From Terriglobales bacterium (GTDB lineage: Bacteria > Acidobacteriota > Terriglobia > Terriglobales > Acidobacteriaceae), in contig DASSIZ010000025.1 of the NCBI GenBank assembly GCA_035691485.1, positions 1 to 36,400 on the forward strand: 36,400 bases of DNA. Direction: 5' to 3'. Made by a program: the position numbers and the translations under genes. Below, one piece after another: positions 25,091 through 28,982 of the stretch (position 1 is its first letter; every line of letters begins with the position of its first letter). The notes beneath the pieces were generated by a model. The model ran no database searches and was not told the DNA's origin. It saw only the letters and a program-made list of their open reading frames with translations.

Positions 25091-25173
25091 AGTGAAAAGT
25101 GAAATCGGGTAATTGAGGAAAGTAGAAGGTAAATTGATCTGTCTTACTTTTTACTTTATCCAATTACCCGATT
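25089..25173. repeat. Heptad repeat and long-loop inverted repeat between convergent genes
   Basis: Two AAAGTGA units (25089-25102) are followed by looser period-7 sequence to about 25138. AATCGGGTAATTG (25103-25115) has an exact inverted copy at 25161-25173, with 45 bases between. The right arm overlaps the last codons and stop of thiO, the left arm lies after the DUF948-like gene, so the hairpin could end or protect both mRNAs. Confidence 0.75.
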
Positions 25174-26237
25174 CCCCTTTTTGTGAACCTGCCCGGCGAA
25201 TACGCGCTGAGTTCGAACTCCGGCGGTAAGCCGCGAATCACCTGGGTCATCACTAGGGCGGTTACCGGCGCGAGCAGGATCCCATTGCGATAGTGCCCGG
25301 TCGCCACGAAGTACCCGTCGGTTTCGCCGCGTCCCAGGATTGGCAAGCCGTCCGGGGTGCCGGGCCGCAGTCCAGCCCATGCCTCCAGCATGCGTGCTTC
25401 GCCCAATTCGGGCACCAGTTCAGCGGCTTTCTGATGCAGGCGCTGGACCGTGTCCGGGATTACCCGCTTGTCGAAGCCGGCTTCTTCTGTCGTCGATCCA
25501 ACCAGAATTCGCCCATCGCTGCGCGGTACCAGGTAAACTTCCGGGCCGCGCACCACGTGATGCAGCAGGTCTCGTCGCGGCGCAATCAATGCCAGCATCT
25601 GGCCTTTAACCGGCCTGGTCGGAATGCGCACGCCGCCGGCAAGCTCGGCGGCCCACGCGCCACAGCAATTCACTACCACAGGCGCATGGAAGGCGGTCTT
25701 GGCGGTTTTCACGCCCTCCACGACAGCATTGCTCATCATCAGCTCGGTGGCCGGGGTTCCCGAAGAGACGTCGATGTCTCGATGTTTTGCCGCTTTCAAT
25801 AAAGCCGTCGTCAGCGCCCTAGGATCGACGCTTCTCTCTTGCAGCAGCACCGCGACGCCGGTATAAGCCAGGCAGGGTTCCAGCGACTTGAGTTGGTCGC
25901 CTTCAGTCATACCCGCCGCGATCGTACCCAAGGCAAAGTTCGACTCAGGAAAATAAATCGTTCCCGACTCGCGCAAGTCCACGTTCACGCCGGACTCGTC
26001 CTGCAGTTGGTGAACGAACTCCGGATACATCAGGGCGCTAGCCACTGCGAGCGGACGCAACGCTTCGGGCGTATGCGGATCCAGATCGGCCAGCATACCG
26101 GCCGCGGCATATGATGCTTCCCGCGCCGGTTCGGCGCGCTCCACTACCAGCACCTTGGCCCCATGCCGGCGCAGCGACAACGCCAGCGACATCCCGATGA
26201 TCCCGCCGCCAACAATGATTGCGTCCCAGGTCTTCAC
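25164..26237 (-). CDS. thiO: FAD-dependent glycine oxidase (ThiO-like)
   Basis: The 357-residue product is a DAO-type flavoenzyme. The FAD-binding motif is VGGGIIGMSLALSLRRHGAKVLVVER at the N-terminus, followed by ASYAAAGMLA, and the C-terminus has EAWAGLRPGTPDGLPILG and FVATGHYRNGILLAP, the typical ThiO segments with the substrate Arg. ThiO oxidises glycine to an imine for the thiazole of thiamine. No other thi gene is next to it, so a broader amine oxidase role is possible. The start is GTG with no clear ribosome site. The last codons overlap an inverted repeat. Confidence 0.85.
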   Translation of the reverse strand: MKTWDAIIVGGGIIGMSLALSLRRHGAKVLVVERAEPAREASYAAAGMLADLDPHTPEALRPLAVASALMYPEFVHQLQDESGVNVDLRESGTIYFPESNFALGTIAAGMTEGDQLKSLEPCLAYTGVAVLLQERSVDPRALTTALLKAAKHRDIDVSSGTPATELMMSNAVVEGVKTAKTAFHAPVVVNCCGAWAAELAGGVRIPTRPVKGQMLALIAPRRDLLHHVVRGPEVYLVPRSDGRILVGSTTEEAGFDKRVIPDTVQRLHQKAAELVPELGEARMLEAWAGLRPGTPDGLPILGRGETDGYFVATGHYRNGILLAPVTALVMTQVIRGLPPEFELSAYSPGRFTKRGIG

Positions 26238-26268: not shown

Positions 26269-26985
26269 CTATTGCGCGGTGCTCGCCCGCACCGCGTCCG
26301 GCTGTTCGCCGATAAGCTTGGAAAAGACTACCAGGCGTTTTGGCGCCGGGCCGATGTAGTAAGTCGGGTAGCATGTGATCAGGGTCAACTCGCTGTCCTT
26401 GGCCGGGCGGACCACCGACATGTCGTCGGGTTCGACGATCTTCTTGCCCACCACCTGGTAGCGGAAAGTCTTGCCCTCGCGCTGCACCATGACAATGTCG
26501 CCCTTTTCGAGTTCATGAATGTGGCGGAAGAATGTATCGCGATGACCGGTGATCACAGAATTTCCGGTCTCTCCCGGGGCGGGCGTTTCTTTCATGTGAC
26601 CAGGGCCCAGTAACAGTGACCGGTAGGTGGTGCCTTCCACTACCACCGAGTCGAGGTCGATCTTGGGGACGGAAAGCCGGGTCAACCCGTCTTGAGTGAC
26701 TGTCGTTGAGGCTGGGTTCGCCACGGCAGCGTGTGGCGCCTGCTGCTGTTGCTCCCATGCCCGCGCCAGCTGATGCTGCTCATAAAACATCTCCCCGTAC
26801 TGCCCACCCACGTAGCCGAGAAGCACCGCGCCCACAATCACCAGCATGGGCGAAATCGCCTGCCGCAAGTTTCGGTCCTTGCGGAACTCTCGCGCGTGCT
26901 GCACTCCAGCACGCAGAAAGGCACGGAATCTGTCCATGGAGCGTCGTGCGATGTTCTGCCAGAACTGCAGGTCCACATTGATCAA
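26269..26985 (-). CDS. Sortase family transpeptidase
   Basis: The 238-residue product has a membrane helix at about residues 46-62 (MLVIVGAVLLGYVGG) and a sortase domain with the full triad: His148 in VITGHRDTFF, Cys205 in TLITCYP and Arg217 in APKRLVV. The LSVPKIDL start and the short beta6-beta7 loop fit class D/E sortases. These enzymes cut a C-terminal sorting motif and join the protein to an amine, normally in Gram-positive walls; here the host appears to be a diderm. TTG 26985 follows GGAGAA; GTG 26976 and ATG 26937 are other starts. It lies downstream of a small exported protein with a sorting-like tail, beyond a terminator. Confidence 0.9.
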   Translation of the reverse strand: MINVDLQFWQNIARRSMDRFRAFLRAGVQHAREFRKDRNLRQAISPMLVIVGAVLLGYVGGQYGEMFYEQHQLARAWEQQQQAPHAAVANPASTTVTQDGLTRLSVPKIDLDSVVVEGTTYRSLLLGPGHMKETPAPGETGNSVITGHRDTFFRHIHELEKGDIVMVQREGKTFRYQVVGKKIVEPDDMSVVRPAKDSELTLITCYPTYYIGPAPKRLVVFSKLIGEQPDAVRASTAQ

Positions 26986-27099
26986 GCGCGCGTTCTCCGG
27001 CGTAAATGGATTGCAAGTGAATCGGGGCCTGTCTGTGTAAGATGCCCAAATCCAGCATCTCGGAACCCGGGGACCTCAATCGGGATGGCTGGAAGCGGC

Positions 27100-27128
27100 A
27101 AAAAGAGAGACACGGTTGCCCGTGCCTC
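27100..27128 (-). terminator. Terminator between the exported protein and sortase genes
   Basis: On the minus strand GAGGCACGG, GCAA loop, CCGTGTCTC form a 9-bp stem with one G-U pair, followed by TCTTTTTG. It lies 22 bases after the stop of the upstream gene, so the sortase is expressed by readthrough or from a separate promoter in 26986-27099, where none is obvious. Confidence 0.8.
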
Positions 27129-27150
27129 AGCACGCCAATAGAAACCGGAG

Positions 27151-27756
27151 CTACCGCGGCCTGGTCTTCATCGCCGAAGCAATTCCGCCCAGCAGTACGC
27201 CAAAACCGATAACCGAAAGCAGCGGGAGCGCCCCGGCAGCCGACGGCGGTTCGTCATCGGTGGATTGATCCTTGGGTTGCTCCACCCGGAAAGCGGCTTG
27301 AATCATGCTCGGGCTGTGATGCCGCAGAGCGATCGCCGCACCCGGAGTGGGCCCCGGTTGTACCACGACAAAGGGCACTTCGCTGCTCGCTCCCGCAATG
27401 GGGGTCCCATTGGCGTCCACCAGTTGCACCACAACCGTATGCGCTCCCGGCGTCAGTCCGGTAAACGTGTAGCTCGTCGAGTTGGTTGTGACTGGATCCC
27501 GGCTGTCGAGCTTCACCCGGAAAGTCGGCACGCCGGCAGCCGAGGCTCCGCCGTTGGTAAGTTCAAATTGCACGTCGACGGACGTCTGTTGCACGTGCGC
27601 GCCCGGCTTCGGCGAGGTGATCCTAAGCACATTGCCAGTAGGCGTTCCCCCCTGGCCAGCCCCCTGGCTCGGGGCAATCCCGGCATTTTGCGCGTACACC
27701 TGGACCGGCAACAGCGCCACGGATACAAGTAAGACCCTAATGATGGTTGATTTCAC
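27151..27756 (-). CDS. Exported Ig-like protein, probable sortase substrate
   Basis: The 201-residue product has a signal peptide (MKSTIIRVLLVSVALLPVQ, cut near YAQ), a Gly/Pro linker and one beta-sandwich domain at about residues 43-132 (LRITSPKPGAHV, YTFTGLTPGAHTVVVQLVDANG). The end is tripartite: PPSAAG at 170-175, a 20-residue hydrophobic helix (176-195) and the basic tail MKTRPR. That is the layout of a sortase sorting signal, with PPSAA in the place of LPXTG or LPNTA. GTG start after GGGGGAG. The gene is immediately upstream of the sortase gene on the same strand. If not a substrate, it is a C-terminally anchored membrane protein. Confidence 0.7.
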   Translation of the reverse strand: MKSTIIRVLLVSVALLPVQVYAQNAGIAPSQGAGQGGTPTGNVLRITSPKPGAHVQQTSVDVQFELTNGGASAAGVPTFRVKLDSRDPVTTNSTSYTFTGLTPGAHTVVVQLVDANGTPIAGASSEVPFVVVQPGPTPGAAIALRHHSPSMIQAAFRVEQPKDQSTDDEPPSAAGALPLLSVIGFGVLLGGIASAMKTRPR

Positions 27757-28148
27757 TTCGCTCCCCCCAAGTTATCCACCCTAGATAAAGTGAAAATTTA
27801 TGCTTCAACGTAGTCCCCACCTGCCAACAGTTGGAAGTTCCCGCCCCGCTTCTCTGTCGGCCAGCTCTGCCGGATATTACGGCGCTGGGCCTAAGAGGAT
27901 GTGTGTCTTACGTGGCGGCACTCTATTGCCGTCTATCCAGGGGTACTTCTGCTGCTGATGAGGTGTGCAATTGTCAAACCAAAGCAGCACCTTAACCCGC
28001 TGTTTTTCTTCAGTTCACCTGACGATGCCGGGCTTAACCACATATCTGTCCGGAGCGTCCCGGAACTCAGAACTCGAGAACGTGTTCATTGACAGTGCAG
28101 GGCTTCTGCTTAACAATTACTCATCCTTCAACTCAGGTCAGGAGAATT
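27757..28148. other. Intergenic region between divergent genes
   Basis: No gene is convincing in these 392 bases; short frames translate to unpatterned sequence. It holds the 11-base palindrome CCAACAGTTGG (27824-27834) about 70 bases before the exported-protein gene, a possible operator, and at the other end the promoter listed separately. I do not see a recognised riboswitch core. Confidence 0.5.
28089..28117 (+). promoter_or_regulatory. sigma70-type promoter of the coiled-coil/DUF421 unit
   Basis: TTGACA (28089-28094) is followed after 16-17 bases by TAACAAT (28111-28117). Transcription would start near 28124, giving a 25-base leader that holds the AGGAG of the gene at 28149. Confidence 0.75.
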
Positions 28149-28982
28149 ATGTCCGAAGAACATGATGACCAAGGTGTAAGCACCGGCTCAGGCGGCAACT
28201 TGCTGCGCTATGTGCTGCTGGCAGTCGCGATGGTTTATGTGATCGCTTCGCTTTATTTCATTGTCGATTCGCGCGGGCGCATCGACAAGCTGGAAGCGGG
28301 GCAGACCGCGGCTAAGGCCGAGAACGCGCAACTGCTGAAGCGTCTTGGCATTGCTGAATCCAGCCTGAAGGCAGAAACGCAGGTTCTGGCGGAAAAAGTT
28401 GGCTTGACCCAGAAGGAAATCGCCTCGCGCTCCGCCGCTCTGCAGCGGGAGCAGAGACAGGCCGAGCAGCGCATCACCGAGCAGACCCAGAAACAGGTCG
28501 GCGCTGTCAGTGGGGAAGTGGCTGGTGTCAGGACCGATCTTGGCGGGGCCAAGAGCGACATCGCCGCCACCAGGACTGAGTTGGAAGCGACCAAGTCGAA
28601 GCTGGAGCGCGTCATGGGCGACCTCAACGTGCAGAGCGGCCTGATCGCGCACACCCGCGACGATCTGGAGGTCTTGAAGCATCGCGGCGACCGCAATATT
28701 TACGAATTCTCATTGCAGAAGGGCGGCCGGCCGACGCCGGTTTCCACCGTCAGCCTGCAGCTCAAGAAGGTGGACGGCAAGAAAGGCAAGTTCACCCTGA
28801 ACGTCATGGCCGACGATCGCACCATCGAGAAAAAAGATCGCACCTTGTTCGAACCGCTGCAGTTCTATACCGGGCGTGACCGCAACCTGTACGAGGTTGT
28901 GGTGATGTCGGCGGACAAGAACAAAATCACCGGGTACCTGAGTGCGCCCAAAGGAGCGCCCGTTCCGACTGTGCAGCAATAG
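28149..28982 (+). CDS. Membrane-anchored coiled-coil protein, function unknown
   Basis: The 277-residue product has a short acidic N-terminus, one membrane helix at about residues 19-38 (LLRYVLLAVAMVYVIASLYFI), a coiled coil of about 130 residues (rich in Gln, Glu, Ala, Lys with regular Leu/Val) and a C-terminal beta-rich domain of about 90 residues (NIYEFSLQKGGRPTPVSTVSLQLKKVDGKKGKFTLNVMADD, LYEVVVMSADKNKITGYLSAPKG). With a single anchor the coiled coil and domain should face the periplasm. AGGAG lies 5 bases before ATG 28149. The DUF421 gene follows after 2 bases, so they are co-translated. I do not recognise the family. Confidence 0.8.
   Translation: MSEEHDDQGVSTGSGGNLLRYVLLAVAMVYVIASLYFIVDSRGRIDKLEAGQTAAKAENAQLLKRLGIAESSLKAETQVLAEKVGLTQKEIASRSAALQREQRQAEQRITEQTQKQVGAVSGEVAGVRTDLGGAKSDIAATRTELEATKSKLERVMGDLNVQSGLIAHTRDDLEVLKHRGDRNIYEFSLQKGGRPTPVSTVSLQLKKVDGKKGKFTLNVMADDRTIEKKDRTLFEPLQFYTGRDRNLYEVVVMSADKNKITGYLSAPKGAPVPTVQQ

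Follow-up and report, generated by a model that had tools for sequence, protein, structure and literature searches.

A class-D-like sortase of an acidobacterium and its operon-linked exported protein with a threonine-less sorting-signal-like tail

Introduction

Sortases usually cut their substrates after a threonine and then tie the protein to the cell wall; this threonine, at position P1 of the sorting motif, is the residue whose carbonyl the enzymes attack. Among the closest described systems to the locus presented here is the pair formed by SrtD and an LPXTA protein in the Bacillaceae (NCBIfam models NF058671, TIGR04383 and NF058670). At three Bacillaceae loci which we fetched, a protein of 326-336 amino acids ending in LPDTAS is encoded directly upstream of the sortase. 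The published systems that follow are described from the extracts of the papers that concern them. In Bacillus cellulosilyticus one sortase type accompanies several LPXTA proteins, the host being a monoderm and the cargo carbohydrases (PMC3617157). SrtB of Clostridioides difficile, a class B enzyme, is likewise a single sortase with several substrates; its motif, (S/P)PXTG, can open with proline and keeps the P1 threonine (PMC4155245). Sortases of diderms include class GN of the Proteobacteria (TIGR03784). For Solibacter a sortase count is given in a table line (PMC3174227), and among the papers listed in our literature searches none dealt with sortase function or substrates in the Acidobacteriota.

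With respect to specificity, the extract of PMC8361268 names P4, P3 and P1' as the motif positions which vary between sortase classes, P1 not being among them. For one SrtB substrate of Listeria the motif is given as NPKSS, and BasE of B. anthracis (LPNAG) behaved as SrtA-dependent in an assay that the authors called too sensitive, BasE not being immunoblotted (PMC3208642, extract). The laboratory-evolved S. aureus enzyme eSrtA(4S-9), which carries A118T and eight further listed substitutions, takes LPEXG where X is A, C or S, and the specificity at motif position 4 is described as jointly set by residues 104, 118 and 182 (PMC9126251, extract). In S. pyogenes SrtA the alanine two residues before the catalytic histidine (His-2) is faced by the methyl group of the P1 threonine (PMC9520033, extract).

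The window, a stretch of 36,400 nucleotides from a soil member of the Terriglobales (Acidobacteriaceae), encodes a sortase and, directly upstream, a small exported protein. Judged by sequence comparison, gene order and class D affinity are known ground, matching the Bacillaceae pair: the enzyme passes NF058671 and its best PDB sequence match is 2ln7, titled B. anthracis SrtD. The window differs from that pair in reading PPSAA instead of LPXTA, in its diderm host and in its cargo. With C. difficile SrtB it shares the opening proline (PPSAAG), and with the engineered, class A eSrtA(4S-9) a threonine at His-2. What is new is the linked signal without threonine, confined as sampled to one acidobacterial group, together with the way in which linked tails part from unlinked ones.

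The sortase

A sequence-only reading of the window had proposed a sortase with His148, Cys205 and Arg217, and the enzyme is a genuine one. The three residues lie at these positions and are invariant in 30/30 aligned relatives, and a Pfam search gave PF04203 across residues 104-224 (E 6.2e-34). In the AlphaFold2 model (mean pLDDT 86.6) the sortase domain is preceded by a long N-terminal helix; the best Foldseek match of the model among solved sortases is 4d70 (E 1.1e-14), and VIA-align against the PDB returned Z scores of 16.3-19.5 among the 50 matches listed. Membership in PF04203 follows from the His/Cys/Arg residues together with this fold. The reading frame opens with TTG, its start position being tentative.

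As to class, the LPxTATN-specific class D model NF058671 is passed narrowly (143.3 bits, cut-off 140), while the general class D model NF033746 (128.7 bits, cut-off 165) and the class GN model TIGR03784 (105.9 bits, cut-off 158.25) are not. Putative LPXTA-type substrates for a class D enzyme exist in the genome in the form of two unlinked LPQTAS proteins. POTRA-domain proteins are also found in the genome, consistent with a diderm host. The pair is flanked by genes for a membrane coiled-coil protein (28089-28982, plus strand) and a ThiO-like oxidase (25164-26237, minus strand), both of which keep their place in the same-genus genomes G012 and G255.

The linked exported protein

The upstream gene starts with GTG and ends 165 bases before the sortase on the same strand. 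Everything which the sequence-only reading had described here was seen again: a small exported neighbour whose single Ig-like domain is followed by PPSAAG, a stretch of hydrophobic residues and a basic end (Table 1). The model shows a single Ig/FnIII-like sandwich at about residues 44-131 (block pLDDT 79-97; PDB matches with Z up to 10.5, which carry no functional information), then a disordered linker and a C-terminal helix, the last two at low confidence.

PPSAAG comprises residues 170-175 (27232-27249). In the fetched sortase loci the tail of the upstream protein consists of seven residues followed by LPLL or similar, without gaps, and in this gapless alignment the PPSAAGA site is position-homologous to LPxTG/LPxTA plus two residues. 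The protein has the architecture of TIGR01167/PF00746 (motif, hydrophobic helix, basic C-terminal end), and it reads PPSAA where Leu-Pro at P4-P3 and Thr at P1 would be found; the motif had rightly been called non-LPXTG. No NCBIfam model, TIGR04383 included, matched the protein at E up to 10, nor did PF00746 in Pfam at E up to 1.

Table 1. Features of the sortase and of the linked protein (positions in the window)
Feature	Position	Strand	Basis
Sortase, 238 aa, class-D-like, single N-terminal membrane helix	26269..26985	-	PF04203, NF058671, predicted fold
Sortase membrane helix, residues 46-66	26788..26850	-	Hydrophobic run within predicted helix 38-82
Catalytic His148	26542..26544	-	Alignment of relatives
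Thr146, His-2 residue of the sortase	26548..26550	-	Column comparison of paired sortases
Catalytic Cys205	26371..26373	-	Alignment of relatives
Catalytic Arg217	26335..26337	-	Alignment of relatives
Linked exported protein, 201 aa	27151..27756	-	ORF; orthologue alignment
Probable signal peptide, residues 1-22	27691..27756	-	By eye
Ig/FnIII-like domain, residues 44-131	27364..27627	-	Predicted structure, fold matches
Thr-less sorting motif PPSAAGA, residues 170-176	27229..27249	-	Gapless tail alignment
Tail membrane helix, residues 177-196	27169..27228	-	Hydrophobic stretch, predicted helix
Basic C-terminal tail KTRPR	27154..27168	-	Sequence

Distribution of the pair among relatives

Among 92 distinct sortases a same-strand tail lies within 3.5 kb upstream in 59 and is absent in 31, the contig being cut in the other two. 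The 31 sortases closest to that of the window by profile score (>284 bits) include 22 with a homologous tail upstream on the same strand, eight without a tailed neighbour and one at a contig cut. Because the homologous tail recurs in 22 of 31, the pairing is beyond chance, and the neighbour with a sorting-signal-like tail is indeed a recurrent one. The expectation that homologous sortases would keep such a neighbour holds for these 22; it fails for the eight and for the sister family f2, where the linked tail is absent in all ten members with enough upstream DNA (one more is cut).

In the tree, all 20 Thr-less linked tails fall inside one weakly supported group of 43 rows (81/55), which contains f2. 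The remaining rows are two with Thr tails (L009, LPETAS; L079, LPQTAS), 19 without a tail and two that are cut. Three changes are required to place Thr and Thr-less linked tails on the tree. Deeper-branching acidobacterial sortases (L130-L163) often have a protein of about 250 amino acids of the LPKTAS type some 1 kb upstream, with a gene-sized gap between. Some relatives (e.g. G104, G119, G081) possess two or three sortases, the extra ones being about 31-42% identical to that of the window.

Across 300 genomes of the family a sortase is present in 78 of the 83 with a tail, and in 106/300 overall. Of the five tail-bearing genomes in which no sortase was found, the three that were inspected (G209, G224 and G237) have broken motifs, with Lys, Asn or Ala at P1; the Lys and Asn cases break the G/A/S pattern described below, the Ala case does not.

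Four genomes of the same genus were compared. That of the window has both the sortase and the Ig gene, and G022 has neither. G255 retains a sortase (69% identical) and an unlinked LPQTAS protein, and is without the Ig gene. In G012 the Ig gene is kept but encodes a protein devoid of the sorting tail, and a search of the rest of this genome at E up to 0.01 returned no other tail. Aligned as DNA to G255, its sortase gene retains both ends and is missing about 500 bases between them; this remnant is clear as DNA and weak as protein (score 56 versus a shuffled maximum of 50). From this comparison, the tail goes with the sortase in the genus and the Ig domain can outlive both. Two other genomes speak against such coupling, namely G237, with a tailed Ig protein and no sortase detected, and G189, with a sortase and an Ig protein devoid of the tail.

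Loss of the P1 threonine

The P1 threonine is missing in 20 of the 22 linked tails of the window's clade and present in 37/37 linked tails outside it. In the genomes of the clade, 60 of 65 unlinked tails have it (55/60 + 5/5), the exceptions being L053 of the window's own genome (LPAGGS), L192 and L232 (LPASGS), L223 (LPHSAS) and L231 (LPASAS). The difference between linked (2/22 with Thr) and unlinked tails gives a Fisher p of 4.5e-13, relatedness being ignored. The unlinked tails were chosen among the matches listed in the tail search, from genomes with a sortase of the 43-row group; at least eight of the 65 adjoin, or may belong to, a second sortase, and without the eight the threonine is found in 47/52. 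Tail model A1 does not explain the threonine of the unlinked tails, since 11 of its 16 rows are Thr-less and would favour the finding of Thr-less ones.

The sequence-only reading had looked to conservation of PPSAAG among orthologues. As a string it is not conserved, there being 18 strings in the 20 Thr-less loci; its position, the pattern LPx[GAS][GASN][SG] and the helix behind it are. In the 18 distinct Thr-less motifs leucine occupies P4 in 14 and proline P3 in 16, and Gly, Ala or Ser is found at P1 in 17, at P1' in 16 and at P2' in 17, against a background of 0.33 in the 30 preceding linker residues. Even the LP is absent from two of the clade's linked tails (L004, VTDSSTS; L092, EVRGAAA). 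Across the 17 distinct tails compared, the helix does not vary at its P, G, G, GG, SA and R positions, and its small residues are spaced four apart. Pooled over nine close pairs (of 14 computed, some members being shared between pairs), the motif has a pN/pS of 0.20 and the helix one of 0.09; for the pair L058/L072 the pN of the motif exceeds pS. The loss of the threonine, as these figures portray it, is not random decay: LP is mostly kept, G/A/S residues follow, and purifying selection appears in close pairs.

All linked frames in the 20 Thr-less loci are open. Several linked proteins are just 79-116 amino acids long. A scan of 399 further genomes of the class returned strong tail matches (E <1e-12) in the window's own family alone, so that no independent Thr-less origin was found among these matches.

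The His-2 residue of the enzyme

Thr146 of the window sortase corresponds to A118 of S. aureus sortase A, in which the catalytic histidine is His120. His-2 is Thr or Ser in 20/20 sortases paired with a Thr-less tail (one sequence is truncated just past it). In 39 sortases paired with a Thr tail it is Ala in 32, Thr/Ser in six and Val in one; among the latter are the two clade members with linked Thr tails, L079 (LPQTAS) with Val and L009 (LPETAS) with Thr. Thr/Ser also occurs in the eight close tail-less sortases, whose genomes have Thr-type proteins alone. Phylogenetic contrasts yielded two independent pairs on supported branches, about one agreeing and none opposite, with which a sign test is unable to reach 0.05; the correlation of His-2 with the Thr-less tail is close to one evolutionary event. 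Several other columns split the groups at least as well, and four of these (49, 61, 62, 65) belong to the sortase membrane helix or adjoin it. Gly/Ala at His-1 (147) was considered as a correlate and rejected: the Thr-less group has Ala in 15 and Gly in four (one truncated), the window itself has Gly, and Ala occurs in 5/39 of the Thr-type sortases.

Candidate substrates

The window's genome is 98.5% complete, and one sortase was found in it. A profile model of 16 tails located three unlinked exported proteins with related tails. L051 (354 amino acids) and L052 (117 amino acids) end in LPQTASPLPL.., and L053 (353 amino acids; a weaker match, E 0.002) ends in LPAGGSILPL... When the unlinked proteins were searched against Pfam and NCBIfam, TIGR01167 matched L051, L052 and L165 weakly (14.4-16.2 bits, cut-off 15.9) and L053 not at all. 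LPQT[AG]S-type proteins are also encoded elsewhere in 8/8 genomes whose close sortase has no tailed neighbour.

Since the only sortase found shares its genome with three unlinked tailed proteins, it more likely serves several proteins than one. The one-enzyme, one-substrate system which the sequence-only reading had inferred is not supported, given these other sorting signals (LPQTAS, LPQTAS and LPAGGS) in a genome where one sortase was found.

L051 and L017 are long Ser/Thr/Gln-rich exported proteins with canonical tails and a short QGCLSGSxGNxTLT segment, which bears a weak likeness to DUF5818 (E 0.014 and 0.1). The gene for L053 is found on contig C27 at about 21.6 kb, no more than a few kb from a 1050-amino acid POTRA frame with several such domains (17.5-19.0 kb).

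Possible functions of the linked tail

What the alignments give is homology of the site to LPxTA/LPxTG, clade-wide loss of the P1 threonine, which the unlinked tails have kept, and a tail under purifying selection. The explanation that we favour, tentatively and short of calling it probable, is a natural shift of P1 specificity, whereby this sortase lineage would accept the Thr-less site of its operon partner and would still serve LPQTA proteins. The class-D-like enzyme would act on a linked protein whose derived signal, LPx[GAS][GASN][SG] (here PPSAAG), precedes the helix and the basic end. This protein would be exported and remain anchored in the inner membrane through its tail, where the window sortase would cleave it between Ala173 and Ala174; the acyl-enzyme would then be resolved by an amine of periplasmic peptidoglycan, at a guess from general biology that of the stem diaminopimelate. 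Thr or Ser at His-2 (Thr146) might accommodate the shift, the same enzyme also serving the unlinked LPQTA(S) proteins. Against cleavage stands the size of some linked proteins, which would leave a mature piece of just 25-50 residues or so. Were specificity shifted, the lineage would exhibit a natural route of P1 change in an enzyme that shares a residue with laboratory evolution, and its sortases would be of use for ligating after Ala, Gly or Ser.

The main competitor, though unlikely, is that the linked protein is no longer cut and remains near the sortase through helix packing. Its tail would be a pseudo-substrate or an anchor in the membrane that presents the Ig-like domain or just a short linker, and it may position the enzyme or adjust its activity. 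The threonine is, after all, missing specifically in the gene which adjoins the sortase, and the helix, with its invariant positions and pN/pS of 0.09, is the most conserved part. Proteins of 79-116 amino acids are odd as anchored cargo and natural as membrane partners, and in G237 an Ig protein with such a tail persists with no sortase found. Columns 49, 61, 62 and 65, which belong to the sortase helix or adjoin it, rank with those that tell the groups apart best, although this may reflect shared ancestry. A plain anchor, however, needs neither the LP nor the run of G/A/S residues which are constrained here; in G012, where the sortase is internally deleted, the Ig protein has survived without its tail; and the eight close sortases which persist without a linked tail argue that the partner is not obligate.

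More doubtful still is the joint claim of a dedicated, non-cleaved pseudo-substrate, an inner-membrane protein with Gly, Ala or Ser in place of the scissile Thr, sometimes barely two hydrophobic segments and a linker, which would occupy the active site but not react, and would lay its conserved small-residue helix on that of the sortase; it would thereby keep in place or adjust the enzyme responsible for anchoring the LPQTA proteins of this diderm. An uncut protein would constitute an unusual sortase-linked membrane partner. With either cleavage or an uncut partner, sortase function in the Acidobacteriota is opened to simple peptide assays.

A vestigial linked protein, once a substrate but now with a drifting motif and a gene that survives by chance, is an improbable reading. 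The 18 different motif strings and the repeated loss of the linked gene or its tail (eight close sortases; the tail-less Ig gene of G189) would suit such an origin, but purifying selection on helix and motif, the restricted residues from P1 to P2' and the open frames in the 20 Thr-less loci run counter to it. Handling of the tail by another C-terminal sorting enzyme, such as the exosortase-family protein of this genome (PF09721, 5.0e-11), is very improbable, for the tail shows homology to LPxTG tails, contains no PEP motif and adjoins the sortase gene in the 20 Thr-less loci. Rhomboid-type matches in the genome fall below the rhombosortase cut-off.

As a separate observation on this genome, the exosortase-family protein (L265) and an exported peptide (L054) ending in VPEIDSATAVSAITLIAGAVLVIKARKK are both encoded on contig C60; this shared contig suggests that a second system for C-terminal sorting may operate in the genome.
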